From the NCBI GenBank assembly GCA_013696965.1, contig JACCXN010000020.1:88400-152399 (forward strand): DNA of 64,000 nucleotides, in the 5' to 3' direction. The notes beneath the pieces were generated by a model. The model did no database searches, had not been told where the DNA came from, and saw only the letters and a program-made list of their open reading frames with translations. The position numbers were made by a program, and so were the translations under genes. Position 1 is the stretch's first letter. Every line of letters begins with the position of its first letter. This DNA is from Bacteroidota bacterium. Its GTDB lineage: Bacteria; Bacteroidota; Bacteroidia; JACCXN01. Below, one piece after another: positions 4,230 to 14,952 of the stretch.

Positions 4230-4237
4230 TATATTTG
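4230..4237 (+). promoter_or_regulatory. Bacteroidetes -7 box (TATATTTG) before the GT2 gene
   Basis: TATATTTG matches the Bacteroidetes -7 consensus TAnnTTTG. It covers the TTG codon at 4235, so that codon would be in the promoter and not in the message; translation therefore more likely starts at ATG 4256. A TTTG lies at 4213-4216, but the 13-base gap is shorter than the usual 17-23, so the -33 element is uncertain. Confidence 0.45.
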
Positions 4238-4255
4238 CATAGTAAATTATTAAAA

Positions 4256-4990
4256 ATGTTCTATTATAAAAAATGGGCCATCGTTGTTCCTTTGGCTAAT
4301 GAGGAAGCAGATTTTAAACCATTCATTGAAATGGTGAATTTGGTGATAAATGAATTGAACCCAGGAAATGTTTATTTCATAGTTGATAAAGCTTCAAAAG
4401 ACAGGACTCTTGAGCTGTGCCAGGAACTGTCAGCCAGGGATCCAAAATATGTTACTGTATGGGCGCCTGAGAACAAGAATGTTGTAGATGCTTATGTTAA
4501 AGGATTGCGTGTTGCATACGAAGCAGGTCATGAAATAATTATTGAAATGGATGCAGGATTATCCCACGATCCGAGAGCAATTCCAATGTTTTTGCGTGTA
4601 TTGAATGAAGGAAATGAATGTGCATTCGGAAGCAGGTTTATAAATGGAGGTTCTATGGGGGATTCGCCATTTAAACGTAGATTTCTTTCAAAAACGGGAA
4701 CCTTTCTTGCCAATTTTTTACTTGGAACTTCATTAAGGGACATGACCTCAGGATACCAGGGATTCCATAGGGATGTGGTGGCTAAAATAATAGATCATAA
4801 GTTTAGATCAAAAGCTCATTTTTACCAAACCGAATTGCGTTATTTGTTGCGAAATAGAAGAATTTTCGAAGTTCCAATACATTACCAGGCACCTTCACCG
4901 CGTGTTTCAAAAAATGCAATAAAAAATGCCTATCAGTCCTTGTTTTATTATTTCTTTCAACGATTAACTGGAAATAAACCAACACTATAA
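4256..4990 (+). CDS. Family 2 glycosyltransferase, DPM1-like (polyprenyl-phosphate sugar synthase type)
   Basis: A 244-aa GT-A fold enzyme counted from ATG 4256; the frame extends to a TTG at 4235 that overlaps a promoter-like box. The N-terminal strand WAIVVPLANEEADF, the VDKASKDRT loop and the metal-binding region IIEMDAGLSHDP follow the dolichyl-phosphate mannose synthase pattern, in which NDP-sugar is joined to a polyprenyl phosphate at the inner membrane face. The later GSRFINGG and DMTSGYQGF blocks are also typical. It lacks C-terminal membrane helices. It lies between a GT-C membrane protein and a STELLO-like gene and could make the lipid-linked sugar used by the GT-C enzymes here. The sugar cannot be told from the sequence. 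Confidence 0.87.
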   Translation: MFYYKKWAIVVPLANEEADFKPFIEMVNLVINELNPGNVYFIVDKASKDRTLELCQELSARDPKYVTVWAPENKNVVDAYVKGLRVAYEAGHEIIIEMDAGLSHDPRAIPMFLRVLNEGNECAFGSRFINGGSMGDSPFKRRFLSKTGTFLANFLLGTSLRDMTSGYQGFHRDVVAKIIDHKFRSKAHFYQTELRYLLRNRRIFEVPIHYQAPSPRVSKNAIKNAYQSLFYYFFQRLTGNKPTL

Positions 4991-6050: not shown

Positions 6051-7739
6051 ATGATTCAATCCAAAATTAAAATCTATTCTGCTTTCGTTTTATTGATTAT
6101 TCTTGTTTCTTACCCGCTTTTCTTAAACTTAGACAAACTAAGTGTAAGAATGTGGGATGAGGCTAGAAATGGAATTAATGCAATTGAAATGTTAGGAAAT
6201 GGAAAGCTATTTGTAACCCATTTCGATGATCAGCCTGATATGTGGAACACAAAGCCTCCATTTATGATTTGGATGATTGCACTTTCCATGAAATTTTTTG
6301 GTGTAACTACATTTGCATTAAGATTCCCCTCTGTTCTGGCAGCTCTAACAATTGTTATATATGGTTTTTGGTTTGCAAGAAAATATATTCAATCAACAAA
6401 CCTTGGTTTTATATTTGGATTAGTTTTATGCACATCAATTGGATTCATTGATCATCATGCATCAAGAAATGGAGATTTCGACACAATGCTTGCAATGTGG
6501 ATATTCCTATATGTTACACAGTTTTTTCTGTTTTTAGAAAACAGAAAACAAATAAATTTAATACTTTTCTCCATTTTTTTTGGTCTGGCTTTACTTACCA
6601 AAGGAATTGCAGCATGCATGATTTTACCAGGCCTGGCAATTTATTTTTTTATCGATAAAAAGAATCTCACATTATTAAAGTCAGCAAATTTTTATGTATT
6701 CTCTTTTTTGGGCCTGCTAATTGGGCTCTCCTATTACATTATTCGGGAACAAATGAACCCTGGCTTTATTGAGATGGTAATTTTTAATGAAATAACAGGC
6801 AGATATGCTGAAACAAACGAAGGTCATTCGGGATCAATTTGGTTTTACTATGAATTATTAAGGGACTACCACTATAAGTTTTGGATATATTTTATTCCAT
6901 TGGCACTAGTCCTGATCTTTTTAAGGGCAGATAAAAAATTAAAAAAAATAACAGCATTTATTTTTCTTCAGGCTATAGTATATTTTGCAGTAATTACTTT
7001 TTCAGATACAAAACTAGATTGGTACGACCTCCCATTATTTCCATTGTTTGCCCTAATAATAGCCGCTGGCTTTACTCAATTACAAATACAAATATCAGGT
7101 TTAAGTGTGTTGAAAAAATCTATTTTTAAACAATTTGTTTATCTATCAATAACGTCACTAATTTTTATTATTCCTCTGAAAAATATTTTTGCCACATCCA
7201 TTCAGTTTGAAAAAGAAACCTATTATCCTGAGACGTTTTATGGCGATTTTATAAATGAAATACATGCATTATTTCCCAATCAAAAAAATTTAAAGGTAAC
7301 TTCCGAAGGTTACAATCCGCATCTAATCTTTTATATAAAAGAGAAAGAAATGCATCATTTGAATATTGAAATTGTTCAACCAACCAACCATGATTTTGTA
7401 CAAAATGACACAATTATGGTAACGGAAATGAAATTTTTTCCAACATTGAAGGAAGATTTGGTTTTAGATACTTTAATTATTGCTGAAGGTCCGAAATTAT
7501 TGCTTCGGGTAATTTCCTATGATGAATACTTCAAAAACAAATATGTAAAACTATTTCTAAAAAAAGTTTCAGAAATTAATTCCGACAAGCAGTGGAACCA
7601 AGCAACAAAGCAAAAGGCTCTAAATAATAATGTAACCATAGAAAAACAAGTTATGCTGGAAGCATTGTGGTGTTTAACTAATGCTAAAGAAATTAGCCCT
7701 GAAGAACAAGATTCCATCAAAGTTAAATACAATTTTTAA
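6051..7739 (+). CDS. ArnT-like GT-C membrane glycosyltransferase with C-terminal W-KA-DAxW motif
   Basis: A 562-aa protein with about ten membrane helices. The first periplasmic loop holds MWDEARNG with D36-E37, the acidic pair of ArnT/PMT family (GT83/GT39) enzymes, followed by KPPFMIW and the FGVTTFALRFPSVL helix typical of that family. Such enzymes move a sugar from undecaprenyl phosphate to an acceptor outside the inner membrane. The last 50 residues add a helical motif (W515 to L542, W-x6-KA-x5-T-x-E-x5-EA-x-W-x-L) that recurs with identical spacing in the genes at 7800 and 12964. It follows the STELLO-like gene by one base and converges with the minus-strand gene at 7800-9707. The acceptor (lipid A, glycan or protein) is unknown. 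Confidence 0.85.
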   Translation: MIQSKIKIYSAFVLLIILVSYPLFLNLDKLSVRMWDEARNGINAIEMLGNGKLFVTHFDDQPDMWNTKPPFMIWMIALSMKFFGVTTFALRFPSVLAALTIVIYGFWFARKYIQSTNLGFIFGLVLCTSIGFIDHHASRNGDFDTMLAMWIFLYVTQFFLFLENRKQINLILFSIFFGLALLTKGIAACMILPGLAIYFFIDKKNLTLLKSANFYVFSFLGLLIGLSYYIIREQMNPGFIEMVIFNEITGRYAETNEGHSGSIWFYYELLRDYHYKFWIYFIPLALVLIFLRADKKLKKITAFIFLQAIVYFAVITFSDTKLDWYDLPLFPLFALIIAAGFTQLQIQISGLSVLKKSIFKQFVYLSITSLIFIIPLKNIFATSIQFEKETYYPETFYGDFINEIHALFPNQKNLKVTSEGYNPHLIFYIKEKEMHHLNIEIVQPTNHDFVQNDTIMVTEMKFFPTLKEDLVLDTLIIAEGPKLLLRVISYDEYFKNKYVKLFLKKVSEINSDKQWNQATKQKALNNNVTIEKQVMLEALWCLTNAKEISPEEQDSIKVKYNF

Positions 7740-7799
7740 AACTCTACTTTTTGAATTGCAACTTTAAAAGTAAAAATAGAAACTATTTTAAAACAGATA

Positions 7800-9707
7800 C
7801 TATTTTTTCAGCTCTTCTTCTATAATCCATTTTGCGTCATAATATAAGGCTGTATCCAAACTTGTATTACTTTCTCTGGCTTTTAATTTAATCATTTCAA
7901 GCCATTCTGGGTTAGCTTTTATCTGAACGATTTTAATATTTATTTTTTCTTCTTTAGTGGTTCCTATTTGAATTACTGGATCAATTTTTAAAACATATCT
8001 TGCATCACCAATCAAAGCCTGCTCCTCGGAAACACCCTCCTTTTCAGCTCGTTCAATCACTGAATTATACCAATTGGGAGTGGCTTTTATTATTTCAATC
8101 ATATTTTGTGTTTTTCTTACATTATCAATTTCTATTAGCAATGCTTTAGGTAGAAATTTTGATGAAATATTGTCAACATTTAAATAAGCCCAATTATTAA
8201 TAAAATTAGTATTTTCATTTATTGAATCAATTTGAGCTTTATTCAAGCCTATTATTTCCAAATTATCTGTATGTTGTTTGTGTATAAGTATTTTGGTAAT
8301 AGTACCATCTGTTTTCATGAAATAAGCAGGAGTACTTGAATAATCATAGGCTGCATTAGGAAAATACCTATTTAAGAATATTACTGGGTCCGGGTTGTAA
8401 AATTTGGGATAATTTTCCAACACCCATACTGAAATGGGTTTTGGCACATTTGTGGACCAGTCATAATCACTTAAATTGTTGTGATAAATTACTGTTGCTA
8501 TTTGGGTTATAAGCGCAAAAGAAGCAATACTGATTTTTAACCTCAGGTTTTTAATTTCGTACAGCAAAAACGCAAAATGAACCAAAATCATTCCACTAAA
8601 GTAGGTAACATAACGATTTACAACAGACTGGCCATGATTCCAATTATCAATTGTTGCTGCAATGCAAACAGAAAATACAGTAAAAACCACTATTATTATT
8701 TCTAAAATATATTCCGGAGGTTTAGTTGTGAGAAATTTCCGAATAAGAAGGAAAATATATAAAAACAAAACAAGTGGAATTGCCAATATTGCGCCTTGAT
8801 TAATATCAAAAAACAAACCCAAAACACGATTAACAGTTACATAGTCAAAACTTAAAGCCCCCTGATATTTAATAAGGTTTGTTTCACCAAAATGGTAGTA
8901 GTAGAACAAAGATGGACCAAGCACTATTATTGTGCTTAAGCCCAACTTTACTAGATTTTTAATATTAATTGGTGCTTTAATTAATGTATATACCGCTAAA
9001 CCAGCAATCAAAATAGCCATTGGCTGATTTTGCAATGCAGCAATAGACATTAAAAACAAACCCCAATAACGCCTTTCGGATAGGAATAAAAACAAACCCA
9101 ATGAAGAAAAACAAACTGTAAATACTTCTGGGTGTTGCCAGGATAAATACCAATAGTTTGTTGAAAAATAAAACATGAATACAAAGAGAGTTGTATATAG
9201 CTTATTAAATCCACTATATCTGAAGAATAAAAAACTACAAATAACAATCAACATTAAATTAGTGAGCTGATGGATAATTAATGGATTAAAATCCAATACA
9301 GCACAAAGAATACGGGAAGGCACATTAATTAAAGAGTATGCAAAGAAATGACAACTAAATTTTTTACCCTTTTCACTTACAAAAAAAGCATAATCGTAAT
9401 CCAGAGGTTGATGATTCTTTTCTGAAACAAACTGCTGAGCTGCATCATAAGTTATTGCTTTTTCATTATTGGACCAGTCGGCAATTTTAGTGTATGCTTT
9501 TTTAAAGGTTTCAAAATCACCCTCTCTTACATCAGGTGAAAAATGATTGTAAAAAGCCTCTGTCATTATTGTATATTCAATTACATCCCCCGTAGGATAA
9601 ATTTTATCTTCACTTACTAGTCGAAAAACCCCAAGAATAAAAATAACAATTACAACAAGGGAGGAAATACTAATTAAATTGCTTTTTATATTTTTTATAA
9701 ATTCCAT
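7800..9707 (-). CDS. GT-C type membrane protein with two C-terminal W-KA-DAxW motifs
   Basis: A 635-aa protein. One N-terminal helix is followed by an acidic loop (TGDVIEYTIMTEAFYNH), further hydrophobic helices to about residue 420, then a soluble tail. The layout is that of a GT-C glycosyltransferase-like protein; I do not recognise a named family. The tail carries two tandem copies of the helical motif W-x6-[KR]-A-x5-S-x-[DE]-x5-DA-x-[WY]: W546 to L573 and W602 to I629. The second nearly reaches the C-terminus (residue 635). It is read opposite to the genes on its left and is followed (in its own direction) by the convergent ArnT-like gene. A second minus-strand gene lies 64 bases upstream, so they may form an operon. 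Confidence 0.75.
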   Translation of the reverse strand: MEFIKNIKSNLISISSLVVIVIFILGVFRLVSEDKIYPTGDVIEYTIMTEAFYNHFSPDVREGDFETFKKAYTKIADWSNNEKAITYDAAQQFVSEKNHQPLDYDYAFFVSEKGKKFSCHFFAYSLINVPSRILCAVLDFNPLIIHQLTNLMLIVICSFLFFRYSGFNKLYTTLFVFMFYFSTNYWYLSWQHPEVFTVCFSSLGLFLFLSERRYWGLFLMSIAALQNQPMAILIAGLAVYTLIKAPINIKNLVKLGLSTIIVLGPSLFYYYHFGETNLIKYQGALSFDYVTVNRVLGLFFDINQGAILAIPLVLFLYIFLLIRKFLTTKPPEYILEIIIVVFTVFSVCIAATIDNWNHGQSVVNRYVTYFSGMILVHFAFLLYEIKNLRLKISIASFALITQIATVIYHNNLSDYDWSTNVPKPISVWVLENYPKFYNPDPVIFLNRYFPNAAYDYSSTPAYFMKTDGTITKILIHKQHTDNLEIIGLNKAQIDSINENTNFINNWAYLNVDNISSKFLPKALLIEIDNVRKTQNMIEIIKATPNWYNSVIERAEKEGVSEEQALIGDARYVLKIDPVIQIGTTKEEKINIKIVQIKANPEWLEMIKLKARESNTSLDTALYYDAKWIIEEELKK

Positions 9708-9771
9708 TCTTTTTCGAATTACTAATTATTTACTTACTTTATTTTAAAAAAAATGCATCAAAATTTGAACT

Positions 9772-11805
9772 CTAAAACTCACCTTTTTGTATAACAACTT
9801 TAAAATTTTCAATGTAAAAATTCTCTTTAGCACGGTTCCAAACATATATTTTTAATTCCGCATCATCAGAAATACCGCTAGGCAAGTTTGCTATTAAAGA
9901 AATATTATTCCAGTTATTTGGCACCTTCATTTTTTCCAGAACAATTAAATCAGCTCTGAACAAGGATTCCCCATCTTTTTCAACTGAAATAACCATATGT
10001 CCGATTGATTTTTTTTCATTATAAACTAAAGCGTTTATTGAAATGGCTGTTTTTCCATTCAATTCACTTATTTTTTTTACTATTCCCGGGCTAAACTGAT
10101 TTTGTTCATTAATTAAATAAGATGCCCTTCCAGTATCAGTGAATATAATTGAAGGGTTATCTATATTACAACCTGCATTCATAAAGGAAGAATGAAAAAC
10201 AAGACAAGAATCACCCTTAACATTCTTGCCAATAAAGCTTTTTACCAAATCACAGGGATTGTCTGAGACATCTGCAATAATTTCAATTGGATTACAAGCT
10301 AACTCATTTTTTACAAATACAGTGTAGCCTGTACTGATTCTCTTGTAATAGCTGCATTCTTTAAATCCTTTACTTACAATAAATTCTTCTATTTTATGGT
10401 CAGGATCCTGAAATTGCGAATGAGAATGAACATAAATAACTTTATTTATAGTATCGTAATTTAAATTTTCCCATCCATACAAAGGACACTTCTCACAATA
10501 GTAAACATTGTTTTTTGCCAACATTTCAGCCGATTTTGAATAATTCCTAAAGGATTCGTAATCGTAATAAAAAGCAAAATCCATGTATTTATAAGTGGCG
10601 GAAATAAAAATAACCGTATTCTTATCCTGCTTACTTTTTACAACCGGAACCATTCTTTTCCAATCATCTTCGCGTTCCTGCGTAATTTCAAAAGAAGTGA
10701 GTATCAATAAAGCAAAAGGGATAATAAATAAGAACTTATAAAGAAATTTCATTTTTAGATTTGAAAAAAAGTAAGCAATGCACAAAAACAAACCAATGGT
10801 GGTATACAAAATATACCTTGCATGGAATACCGGGGTTTTCTGAGAAACAATAAAATCCAGAACTATGGGCAGGATATACAGTGTTACAAAAACAAAGTAG
10901 TGTTTGCGATTAAACTCCATGCTAAGAACCTTCAGCTGATTGTTGAAAACAACAATCAAAAATGAAAGCGAAACAAATGCACTAAAAACATAAAACAAAG
11001 TTTCACTTCCCGAAAGAACATTTGTATGGTATCTAAATGCATCAAAATTTGGAGCTATGTTCCAAAAAGAGCCTTCTTTGGGAACATTGGATAAGAGTAT
11101 AGAAACCCAGGGCAAAAAAGAAATTACAAGGAATATTTGACTAACAAAATAATAAACAAAAGCTTTTCTGTTTTCTTTAAAATATCCCCAAATAAAAACA
11201 AACTGAACAACAAGAATAAAAACAGAAAGGTAATGCGTAAAGAGTAAAGACAAATTAATTAACCACAAAAAAATAACATCGCTCTTTTTGGGCTTAGTAA
11301 GCAAATTGAAATAAATATAAAATGAAGAAATGCACAACAATTGAATAAGGGCATAAGGCCTTACCTCTGTAGAGAAATAGTGCTGGGAATTGGAAAACAA
11401 AAACAAGAAAAAAGCAATTACTGCTGTTTGAATGTTCAAAAACTTTTTGGCAAATAAAAATAAAATAAGGCCTGCAAAAACACTACATGCAACAGATAAC
11501 ATTTTAGAAGCTATTTCTGTTACTCCGAAAATTTCCATCCAAAAATGCAACAAAGCAATGTGCATGGGTGGGTTTTGATCATTTAAAAATATTACTTTTA
11601 GTTCAGATAGCGATTTTTGACCATGAAACACACTATACATCTCATCGCCATATAAGCTCTCCAGAGAAAGGCCATATGTACGAATAAACAGTGATAGTAA
11701 AAACAAAAAAAACAACAGTAAAAAGAATATTAATTTACTATTTAATCCTTGTTTTTTATTTGTTGGAATTTCACCCATTGTTGACAAATATTCTCGTGGA
11801 ATCAC
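9772..11805 (-). CDS. PMT/GT39-like membrane glycosyltransferase with C-terminal beta-domain
   Basis: A 677-aa protein. LYGDEMYSV with D54-E55 in the first outer loop, then NPPMHIALLHFWMEIFG and the STEVRPYAL segment, is the signature of PMT_2 family enzymes, which use polyprenyl-phosphate sugars. Membrane helices end near residue 385. The 290-residue outer tail ends in a beta-type block (YVWNRAKENFYIENFKV) homologous to the end of the protein at 2212-4068, although the membrane parts differ. A second in-frame Met (M10, ATG at 11778-11776) is an equally good start. It is the first gene of the minus-strand pair and is divergent from the scoB side. The acceptor is unknown. Confidence 0.8.
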   Translation of the reverse strand: MIPREYLSTMGEIPTNKKQGLNSKLIFFLLLFFLFLLSLFIRTYGLSLESLYGDEMYSVFHGQKSLSELKVIFLNDQNPPMHIALLHFWMEIFGVTEIASKMLSVACSVFAGLILFLFAKKFLNIQTAVIAFFLFLFSNSQHYFSTEVRPYALIQLLCISSFYIYFNLLTKPKKSDVIFLWLINLSLLFTHYLSVFILVVQFVFIWGYFKENRKAFVYYFVSQIFLVISFLPWVSILLSNVPKEGSFWNIAPNFDAFRYHTNVLSGSETLFYVFSAFVSLSFLIVVFNNQLKVLSMEFNRKHYFVFVTLYILPIVLDFIVSQKTPVFHARYILYTTIGLFLCIAYFFSNLKMKFLYKFLFIIPFALLILTSFEITQEREDDWKRMVPVVKSKQDKNTVIFISATYKYMDFAFYYDYESFRNYSKSAEMLAKNNVYYCEKCPLYGWENLNYDTINKVIYVHSHSQFQDPDHKIEEFIVSKGFKECSYYKRISTGYTVFVKNELACNPIEIIADVSDNPCDLVKSFIGKNVKGDSCLVFHSSFMNAGCNIDNPSIIFTDTGRASYLINEQNQFSPGIVKKISELNGKTAISINALVYNEKKSIGHMVISVEKDGESLFRADLIVLEKMKVPNNWNNISLIANLPSGISDDAELKIYVWNRAKENFYIENFKVVIQKGEF

Positions 11806-11894
11806 CCTTATGGGTATTTCTTAATGGTCTGCAATACTCTATATTATCACAAACATAGTATTATTTTTTTTGTTTACACAGGAAACAAATATTC

Positions 11895-12228
11895 ATGAAT
11901 TACAATTCACAATTACTTAACTGGAATTTGAGGATAAGCAGGGGACTAATAACTATCTTATTTTTCAAGGAATTAGCTGTTCATACATTTATACTACAAT
12001 TTGAATTTTTGCAGTTATTAATGAAAATTAGGCTTAAAATAAAGAAACAGGCAACAAAGAGTTTTGAAAATTCAATGAATTTAGAGTTAAATAAATGTAA
12101 TAAAGTTAGTTTTGACTACCTTTCCGCTGAATTCAGATAAAACTGCCTAAAAAAATAAAACCGGTAAAAATCAGAATATTTTCATCCCTGATTATAAAAT
12201 TGATATTTTTGAACCACAAAATTAATTA
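11895..12228 (+). pseudogene. Decayed 3' remnant of a GT-C gene (C-terminal beta-domain) before scoB
   Basis: From about 12058 the DNA and its translation match the last 55 codons of the gene at 2212-4068: LELNKCNKVSFDYL here against LELNKWNKVSFDYL there, then, after a stop at 12138-12140 and small deletions, [11 protein letters not shown] against DLKIDVFEPKN and the same closing TAA at 12226-12228. The short open frame that starts at 11895 has no recognisable N-terminal part. I read this as the scar of a second copy of that gene, or of a duplication of its end, whose body has been lost. Confidence 0.75.
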
Positions 12229-12230
12229 AA

Positions 12231-12890
12231 ATGCCTTTAGATAAGAACGGAATTGCCAAACGCATTGCCCAGGAAGTAAAAGACGGTTTCTATGTAAATT
12301 TAGGAATTGGAATACCTACCTTGGTAGCAAATTATATCCCTGAAGGAGTTGATGTTATACTTCAATCAGAAAATGGCTTATTGGGAATGGGCCCTTTTCC
12401 TTTTGCAGGAGAAGAAGATCCTGATTTGATAAATGCCGGAAAACAAACCATTACAACAATTCCTGGATCTGCTTTTTTTGATTCAGCCATGAGTTTTGGA
12501 ATGATTCGCGCAGGGAAAGTTGACCTTACCATTCTTGGAGCAATGGAGGTGAGTGAAACAGGAGATATTGCCAATTGGAAAATACCGGGAAAAATGGTAA
12601 AAGGTATGGGAGGTGCAATGGATTTAGTAGCTTCGGCCAAAAACATTATTGTTGCCATGCAACATATTAATAAGGCCGGGGAATCAAAATTACTTCCAAG
12701 TTGTTCCCTTCCACTTACGGGAGTTAAGTGTGTAAAAAAAATTGTCACAGAATTGGCTGTAATTGATGTTACTCCCCAAGGTTTTAAACTTATTGAAAGG
12801 GCGCCAGGAGTATCTGTGGAAGAAATAGTAAAAGCCACAGCTGGAAAATTAATCGTTGAAGGAGAAATTCCGGAAATGAAAATTTTTTAA
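12231..12890 (+). CDS. scoB: Succinyl-CoA:3-ketoacid CoA transferase, subunit B
   Basis: A 219-aa beta subunit of full family length. The catalytic glutamate sits in QSENG (E47), and the oxyanion/CoA-binding glycine segments ([22 protein letters not shown]) are in place. It acts with ScoA (1388-2080) to form the class I CoA transferase that activates acetoacetate. It is on the same strand as scoA but about 10.1 kb away, behind the decayed end of a glycosyltransferase-like gene whose stop lies two bases before this ATG. It therefore cannot sit in the usual two-gene transcript unless a very long one exists, and the minus-strand genes between make that unlikely. Its promoter must be local, but I see no clear -7 box. 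Confidence 0.94.
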
Positions 12891-12963
12891 ATTCAAACTT
12901 CCTGTAAATAAATTCAGGCTAAATTATCCGGAAAAACGTTGAATTTAACACCATAAAAAAAAC

Positions 12964-14952
12964 ATGATCAAATTAATTCGTTTTAGTGCCCTATTTATTC
13001 TAATCGCACTTTTTGCCTCATGTAGTAATAGTCCTGAAATTTTAAATGTAAAATACAATTTAGGTGAACTTTCAAATGGAGTTATTCAAGCCGATTTATC
13101 GGGGGTAGTTACCAATGGGATAGAAATTCCAACAGAAAGGCAAACCGCTTCTGGCAATTTCGACATTTCATTTGAGGTAAAAGGAAGCAAAGGCCAGAAT
13201 TATTTTTACAAGATTTATTACCAGAACGAAAGTTACAAATTCCCTGAAATTGCTGATACTGCCCAAAATTACAATGCATTTGCAGATGAAAATTTCTATG
13301 GCTCTTGGAATGATCCATCTATAGGATTTAAAAAAGTGCCTGCAATTGATTTTACTATTAATGAATCCATAAAAATTATTGGCAATCCAAGAGACGAAAA
13401 AAAATATTATGGAATTCCATTCCAAAAAACGTATTACAGTGAGGAAGATATTCAAGCCGTAGGCAAAAACATAAGGGAAACACAAGACTGGTTTGCCGCC
13501 ATAGTTTCAAAAGCAGAAAAAAATAAATTAAGTATCGAAGAACAATTGCTTTTTGATGCTAAGTGGGTTTTGAAAAATGAAACCAGGGGAGAGCATGAAA
13601 ACAACCGGTGGAAAAGAAATCCAAGAATGGGCACTTACAGCCTTATGGTAGTAGTTACTACAGAGGAGGAACTAGCCAAGATCCCTAAACACATCCAATT
13701 TATAAATGAACTTTCAGATAGCGGAATTTTCGTTTCTCCTTATTACTTTTTCAAATACAAAATAAACCCTGATTCTTTTCCTGATACAAAAGTATTTATT
13801 GATAGCTCCTTTGTAAGGGTACAAGCTTCCATGGATGTTGCTGGGGGAATATGTGCCAATCCACTTGAATATCCCTCTTCAGAAAAAATGCCCGATGAAA
13901 AAGCGTGTGGTTGGAATAAGGATTTATTTAACAATGCACATTTCGGCCAGTTTTTTTCCTCCCTGAATAAAAACTTCCACTTAAATACAATACCTCTTAT
14001 TCAAGACGTAAATGATTCCAGTTATACAAAGGATGAATATGATTCAGCAATAAAAAAATATTCAGAAAAACAATTTAAAAAAGATTACATAAGAAGTACT
14101 GAAAATCCGTGTAAATATGTAAGGTATAATGAAAATAAAAAAGCTATTGAGATTGTGAATCCCGGAAATGACAAGCTTGCAGATGCACACAAAGTTAATA
14201 TGGGGATTAAAACAAGAATAGGATTCACTTACGGAAAAATAACTGCTAAAATTAAATTCCCTGAACTGATAAATAAACATAACGTTTGGAATGGATTAAC
14301 AAATGCCTTTTGGTTAATATACCAGGATGAACAGGAATGGAATAATCGCAGGGTTTGTAAAACAGGCTATTCCAAAAAGGGAGAAACCATAAATGATGCT
14401 CCAAGGATTTCTCAGACAAATTATTCAGAAATAGATTTCGAAATAGTAAAAACAAGCCCTAAATGGCCAATAGGTTATTACAAGGGGAGAATAAATGAAA
14501 AGGATGAATCGCAAAGTGATGATATTATTGTTGGATGCACTAACTGGGATTTAACCTGTAAGGATTGCAAAACATATACATGGGGAATTGATACGGTTGA
14601 ATATGAAAATAAAACTTTTGAAACAATGCGATGGGACAGTCATTATCAAGCCCTTACTACCCGAACTGCAGCAAAAGACAATGACTTATTCAAAAGCCCA
14701 TATTACTACTACCAATTTGAATGGACTCCCAACCATATTATTTGGAGAATAGGACCGGAAAAGGATAAACTATCCGTTGTTGGATATATGAACAGTGATA
14801 TAACATCTATTCCCAACAATCAAATGATTGCTGTAATTACCCAGGAATACCACTTATCGGAGTGGTGGCCTCCTATAACCTTTAAGCAAGAATTCATTCC
14901 ATTTCCAAAAAATGATATAATAGGGGAAGTATATGAATTAACGATTGAATAA
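12964..14952 (+). CDS. GH16-like lipoprotein carrying a W-KA-DAxW motif
   Basis: A 662-aa protein with a signal peptide and lipobox (LFASCS), so it should be a lipid-anchored envelope protein. The C-terminal half from about residue 400 resembles glycoside hydrolase family 16: GKITAKIKFP, the catalytic motif EIDFE (E489 nucleophile, D491, E493 acid/base) and FEWTPNHIIWRI are all present, so hydrolysis or transglycosylation of a beta-glucan or galactan is possible. The middle has the helical motif W176 to L203 found in two membrane proteins of this locus. The N-terminal part is unassigned. The GT2 gene follows after 40 bases, suggesting an operon. The family match rests on motifs alone, and the insert-rich sequence may mean a remote GH16 relative. 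Confidence 0.75.
   Translation: MIKLIRFSALFILIALFASCSNSPEILNVKYNLGELSNGVIQADLSGVVTNGIEIPTERQTASGNFDISFEVKGSKGQNYFYKIYYQNESYKFPEIADTAQNYNAFADENFYGSWNDPSIGFKKVPAIDFTINESIKIIGNPRDEKKYYGIPFQKTYYSEEDIQAVGKNIRETQDWFAAIVSKAEKNKLSIEEQLLFDAKWVLKNETRGEHENNRWKRNPRMGTYSLMVVVTTEEELAKIPKHIQFINELSDSGIFVSPYYFFKYKINPDSFPDTKVFIDSSFVRVQASMDVAGGICANPLEYPSSEKMPDEKACGWNKDLFNNAHFGQFFSSLNKNFHLNTIPLIQDVNDSSYTKDEYDSAIKKYSEKQFKKDYIRSTENPCKYVRYNENKKAIEIVNPGNDKLADAHKVNMGIKTRIGFTYGKITAKIKFPELINKHNVWNGLTNAFWLIYQDEQEWNNRRVCKTGYSKKGETINDAPRISQTNYSEIDFEIVKTSPKWPIGYYKGRINEKDESQSDDIIVGCTNWDLTCKDCKTYTWGIDTVEYENKTFETMRWDSHYQALTTRTAAKDNDLFKSPYYYYQFEWTPNHIIWRIGPEKDKLSVVGYMNSDITSIPNNQMIAVITQEYHLSEWWPPITFKQEFIPFPKNDIIGEVYELTIE

Follow-up and report, generated by a model that had tools for sequence, protein, structure and literature searches.

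The window analysed here is a 64,000-nucleotide stretch of contig JACCXN010000020.1 (positions 88,400 to 152,399) of a Bacteroidota bacterium, assembly GCA_013696965.1. It contains a glycan gene island in which two membrane glycosyltransferases and a lipoprotein carry a small helical module, next to neighbours that do not:

4235-4990, plus strand: GT2 glycosyltransferase of the dolichyl/undecaprenyl-phosphate hexose synthase type, island neighbour without module
6051-7739, plus strand: ArnT-like GT-C glycosyltransferase (PMT_2), host; PF13231 at E 3.5e-16, NF009784 below its cut-off
7800-9707, minus strand: GT-C-type membrane glycosyltransferase with two modules; weak match to the LA_3751/LA_3752 family (NF047440, E 1.8e-7, below its cut-off)
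9772-11805, minus strand: GT-C protein without module, island neighbour
12964-14952, plus strand: GH16-fold lipoprotein, host; catalytic motif E489-I-D-F-E493, Z 18.3 to 5nbo

The 335-residue product of 5042-6049 matches the STELLO glycosyltransferase family (PF03385, E 3.9e-10); its relatives are found again in the same islands at loci L247, L250 and L290. Two CoA-transferase-like genes (1388-2080 and 12231-12890) are separated by about 10 kb of glycan genes in the window and are adjacent in L247 and L257. The glycan island looks as if it had been inserted between two CoA-transferase subunits.

A preliminary description of this DNA had reported a 28-residue helical motif in three unrelated proteins. 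In a six-frame translation of the window its pattern matched exactly four times, in the three ORFs named, at 7593-7676 (+), 8072-7989 (-), 7904-7821 (-) and 13489-13572 (+), and nowhere else; it was absent in 300 shuffles of all window ORF residues. Two of the three hosts are both GT-C-type membrane glycosyltransferases, albeit members of different families. Only four positions are invariant among the four copies. A search of the whole 3.86-Mb assembly with a four-copy profile, lengthened to take in a conserved I at W-6, returned these copies and no fifth. The complete modules are located as follows:

7548-7682, plus strand: module of the ArnT-like GT-C protein (ORF 6051-7739), residues 500-544, W515 central, C-terminal
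7983-8117, minus strand: module copy 1 of the minus-strand GT-C protein (ORF 9707-7800), residues 531-575, W546
7815-7949, minus strand: module copy 2 of the same protein, residues 587-631, W602; the C-terminus is 4 residues beyond
13441-13581, plus strand: module of the GH16-fold lipoprotein, residues 160-206

Thus, within the window the module is internal in the lipoprotein, where it occupies one loop, and C-terminal in both GT-C proteins.

The 28-residue motif exists, but it does not cover the unit, which according to profile columns and AlphaFold models spans about 45 residues and three helices. In the AlphaFold model of the minus-strand GT-C protein each of the tandem copies forms three confidently predicted helices (mean pLDDT 88, and 92-97 over the helices). 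The lipoprotein copy is likewise modelled as three helices, 160-172, 174-186 and 191-206 (whole-model pLDDT 92.6). On the basis of these models the 28-residue motif corresponds to helices 2 and 3 of a predicted three-helix mini-domain. It starts about 15 residues ahead of the W. In 256 copies the upstream core columns are hydrophobic at -13, -10/-9 and -6, the latter a conserved I. W is found at position 0 in 89 percent, followed by an aliphatic or aromatic residue at +1, I/V/L at +4, K at +7, A at +8 (95 percent) and G/N at +12. S/T at +14, V/I/L at +15 and E/D at +16 form a typical helix N-cap, and L/I at +19, D/N at +22, A at +23, W/Y at +25 and I/L at +27 complete the pattern. The column statistics describe a periodic hydrophobic core, and the net charge of the unit is close to -1. 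It appears to be non-catalytic and shows no obvious catalytic residue. A PDB fold search with the tandem model gave only weak matches, with a best Z of 4.4 over 49-54 residues, as expected for a small helical bundle. A PDB sequence search with the four-copy profile returned designed armadillo repeats; these were rejected, the similarity being compositional only and no single stretch passing alone.

Is the resemblance of the copies genuine homology? Profile A3 was built from 29 module members, and A4 is A3 read backwards. The reversed profile matched in 0 of 198 genomes at E<=1e-3; above that level it had four weak hits, at 0.02-0.08. When 14,327 ORFs were reversed or shuffled, no domain fell below 1e-5; in the same local test 375 to 423 real domains were below 1e-8. 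Further, a profile made solely from GH16 lipoproteins, with the window copy left out, detected the three glycosyltransferase copies of the window (iE 7e-14 for the ArnT-like copy, 4e-14 and 5e-14 for copies 1 and 2 of the minus-strand GT-C protein), and profiles made solely from AlgX-like or from other GT-C proteins also detected them (5e-11 to 7e-17). The proteins scored in this cross-host test were preselected with A3; the E-values stand by themselves. Because the reversed profile is silent at E<=1e-3 and cross-host iE values are around 1e-14, homology and not chance is indicated: judged from these profiles the modules form one homologous family, in which host classes detect one another above decoys. 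Convergence or chance among amphipathic helices is hardly credible, for although short helical motifs can match accidentally and the window copies share so few invariant positions, the decoy and cross-profile tests already refute it and the insertion is clean with fixed borders.

The insertion is best seen in the GH16-fold lipoprotein, which matched no Pfam or NCBIfam model up to E 10. Its residues 286-662 adopt in the model the beta-jelly-roll fold expected of GH16 (Z 18.3, rmsd 3.0 over 223 residues to the Bacteroides ovatus GH16 enzyme 5nbo), and E489, D491 and E493 of the catalytic ExDxE motif are invariant in 60 relatives. The family has at least 232 relatives; those listed are from Bacteroidota MAGs. 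The L008/L094 lipoprotein has a degenerate catalytic motif (YSEINMKILK vs YSEIDFEI), still contains the module and is possibly a non-catalytic member, to go by these residues. The module is inserted between the conserved stretches 'GNPRDE' (also given as 'GNPRNE') and 'NNRWKRNPR'. It was present in 90 of the first 90 relatives, a set whose ranking used queries that contain the module. When the GH16 domain alone served as query, alignment of the added members revealed more than 20 relatives in which both flanks are joined directly. The L285 lipoprotein, the same gene as L100 and a close relative, has two modules in the same loop. GH16 lipoproteins therefore contain 0, 1 or 2 modules, cleanly, in one loop. 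In many loci the lipoprotein gene adjoins a protein of roughly 630-790 residues without Pfam match (cluster c25, L257:10747-13113 and relatives; L247, L248, L272, L289-L292, L294-L297, L299-L303, L305).

Module searches alone brought in 121 distinct module proteins, which are envelope glycan enzymes almost throughout. Most common are AlgX-like SGNH acyltransferases (53/121); four representatives matched PF16822 with E 2.7e-15, 3.9e-13, 5e-14 and 4.1e-8. A PF16822 search of the window's own genome gave no match, and the control was equally silent. There are 24 GT-C-type glycosyltransferases in several unrelated clusters, some with PMT_2, 21 GH16-type lipoproteins, eight membrane-anchored SGNH-like proteins, seven O-antigen ligases with TPRs (PF04932) and three GDSL proteins. 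For clusters without a Pfam hit, the SGNH-like and GT-C labels were read from the sequence by the analyst. Two small lipoproteins of 138 and 143 residues consist of two modules and nothing else and are encoded beside module-bearing enzymes. A CotH protein (PF08757), a NAGPA protein (PF09992) and a short ORF occur once each. Two or three copies within one chain are common. Excluding GH16 lipoproteins, the last W is at most 65 residues from the C-terminal end in 189 of 201 hosts and at most 45 in 166; the expectation for uniform placement is 10 percent. By a crude hydropathy count, more than 100 residues separate the module of polytopic hosts from the last hydrophobic segment before it. Taken together with knowledge of the families, this count suggests that the module is periplasmic. 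In the ArnT-like proteins of L268-L271 a second, eroded copy (RWKTDLETRAAAKGISLEAFC..EVEFIF) follows the clear module and forms the very C-terminus. In the AlgX-like proteins of L297 and L305 the C-terminal module is degenerate (about 16 bits), and a count of one module in a genome is therefore a minimum.

A profile search thus finds the module across Bacteroidia, with a concentration at the C-terminal ends of glycan enzymes, GT-C proteins among them; it is neither confined to the window nor as frequent in shuffled proteins, nor covered by a known domain. The four-copy profile matched in 30 of 99 related genomes (E<=0.1), and A3 in 92 of 395 genomes of the class (E<=1e-3). A draw of 296 mostly near-complete genomes from the phylum gave no match beyond the window's own (295 others negative). 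The module is therefore patchily distributed, and the rate of 23 percent in the class draw should not be extended to the phylum as a whole. This suggests that the module is scarce in the lineages which dominate the phylum draw, and that scarcity may explain why it went unnamed. In sum, many Bacteroidia attach the module, mostly C-terminally, to unrelated enzymes that synthesise, acetylate, ligate or cleave the sugars of the cell envelope.

Module genes are linked. The most common arrangement is GH16 lipoprotein, MBOAT (PF03062) and AlgX-like protein, in which the MBOAT never bears the module. At L080 a stretch of 9.3 kb encodes a two-module lipoprotein, two AlgX-like proteins, a CotH protein, a GT-C and an MBOAT; the module is lacking only in the MBOAT and in the product of one gene of unknown family. 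In 21 genomes with at least two module proteins, 24 of 59 gene pairs were at most 10 kb apart vs 0.34 expected at random placement; general clustering of glycan genes could produce part of this linkage, and relatedness among the genomes means that they are not independent samples. Around the GT-C, Wzy and SGNH hosts, no gene family that lacks the module recurs in every island. The preliminary description had proposed a docking unit joining these proteins. The unit is indeed a genuine homologous module common to otherwise unrelated glycan proteins, and it may plausibly dock. However, a single module protein was above threshold in 66 of the 87 positive genomes listed. By this count, joining of different enzymes, module to module, cannot be general, and an obligatory pairing across different proteins is unlikely.

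Different subunits of the same gene island carry the module in different genomes, and its gain or loss is clean. A module-less GH16 lipoprotein is found within a few genes of a module-bearing GT-C protein of the window type (L247, L248), of a module-bearing SGNH protein (L255, L257) or of a module-bearing ArnT-like protein (L272). The two-module lipoprotein of L285 is accompanied by an ArnT-like protein that lacks the module; in the window each of these two proteins has a single copy and the second GT-C protein has two. Among the 395 genomes both module and GH16 lipoprotein occurred in 39, the lipoprotein only in 13, the module only in 53 and neither in 290 (Fisher 9e-18, kinship ignored). The module was present elsewhere in 14 of 27 genomes with a module-less lipoprotein vs 53 of 343 without lipoprotein (Fisher 3e-5, kinship ignored); among the 14, the G182 case may come from one gene divided between two contigs, and among the 13 negatives G152 is a fragment and G132 and G390 have a degenerate copy on the AlgX-like neighbour.

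The preliminary description did not recognise a named domain, and none was found. No Pfam or NCBIfam domain is placed at the window copies, and no family recurred at the module when 29 modules and about 30 whole host proteins were compared with Pfam-A. Dockerin, LysM, the Pfam carbohydrate-binding families and T9SS C-terminal domains gave no Pfam match there. It matched no Pfam, NCBIfam or PDB family, and neither these two domain collections nor the papers searched contained a description of it. The three-helix module is a previously unnamed domain. The dockerin modules of cellulosomes are also small helical C-terminal add-ons common to unrelated glycan enzymes. Here, however, a Pfam dockerin match is absent, each genome has one to five module proteins and no receptor family was recognised. 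The closest precedent in kind is SHOCT (PF09851), a short helical domain without known function that sits mostly at the C-termini of many unrelated proteins, is repeated in some and is missing from model organisms (PMC3581485). The present module, too, is mostly C-terminal in diverse hosts (189 of 201 non-GH16 hosts within 65 residues). Yet SHOCT has about 30 residues, two helices and hosts such as band 7, PH and TM2 proteins, whereas our module has about 45 residues, three helices and is tied to envelope glycan enzymes; in the Pfam-A comparison the PF09851 model matched neither the modules nor the whole hosts. In AlgX, too, a C-terminal module comes after the SGNH domain of the O-acyltransferase, but that one binds carbohydrate and presumably guides alginate (PMC4148444); the module here is a three-helix unit and is on many other enzymes as well. 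In MBOAT-SGNH pairs (PatA/PatB, AlgI/AlgJ/AlgX, DltB/DltD) the acyl shuttle is a C-terminal hexapeptide of the MBOAT or of DltX with an invariant Tyr (PMC12148441). The commonest hosts, AlgX-like SGNH proteins, are indeed encoded beside an MBOAT gene, but the module is on the SGNH partner. An acyl shuttle for MBOAT was rejected: the module has no invariant Tyr or Ser and many hosts have no MBOAT neighbour. The AlgX module and the acyl-Tyr hexapeptide are functional parallels of position, not relatives.

What might the module do? As part of the best explanation it would fold independently and be mobile between hosts. We give about an even chance to a role in bringing periplasmic glycan enzymes, by recruitment or docking, to one shared target in the envelope; here the periplasmic location and the binding role are inferred. 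The module would face the periplasm and bring the enzyme that carries it to a common site on a glycan-finishing machinery, where it would meet a protein partner common to the carriers or associate with further copies of the carrier itself. Thereby glycosyl transfer, O-acylation and GH16 trimming would converge on one envelope glycan. A single carrier seems to suffice for each machine. This would account for species that differ in the carrier, the GH16 lipoprotein having the module in one and a GT-C or SGNH protein having it in another. A shared machine is favoured because module genes cluster, because different island subunits carry the module and because two lipoproteins consist of two modules only. 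More specifically, and more tentatively, the module may be an interchangeable assembly tag: whichever periplasmic subunit bears it would tether the whole machine to one receptor, and the two-module lipoproteins would be free adaptors. Members of this conserved machine would be the GT-C protein, the AlgX-like partner of MBOAT, the GH16 lipoprotein, the SGNH protein and the O-antigen ligase, one or more of them tagged per species.

Alternatively, the module is a small carbohydrate-binding unit which keeps the growing surface polysaccharide, or peptidoglycan, close to its carrier's active site. Every host class acts on glycans, one module protein per genome suffices, any enzyme of the machine can carry it, avidity would rise with tandem copies, and aromatic residues (W, Y, F) are frequent at 0, +1 and +25. 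These aromatics, however, fall in the helical core pattern, the carbohydrate-binding module of AlgX is a different domain, the Pfam carbohydrate-binding families do not match and, given the net charge, the module is no obvious polyanion binder. We view glycan binding as a real but rather doubtful option. Improbable in our estimate is a unit for oligomerisation or stability of its own protein, e.g. in homodimerising AlgX-like enzymes, with no common target. Single-module genomes and the frequent two or three copies per chain agree with it, and positions +20 and +21, more hydrophobic in GH16 lipoproteins than in other hosts, suggest packing on the host. But the module is kept in very different hosts, even in lipoproteins with no other domain, its genes cluster, and for SHOCT, which is comparably short and C-terminal, an oligomer hypothesis failed its first test (PMC3581485). 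Recruitment to a common target is favoured over both since the module moves between the enzymes of one machine and can be single; the docking proposed in the preliminary description is a stronger version of this reading.

The module provides a searchable domain for hundreds of unannotated tails in Bacteroidia. It connects enzyme classes that had no known tie before, namely GH16 lipoproteins, MBOAT/AlgX-type acyltransferases, GT-C enzymes and O-antigen ligases, and the idea that they make up a single machine for finishing an envelope glycan becomes testable.
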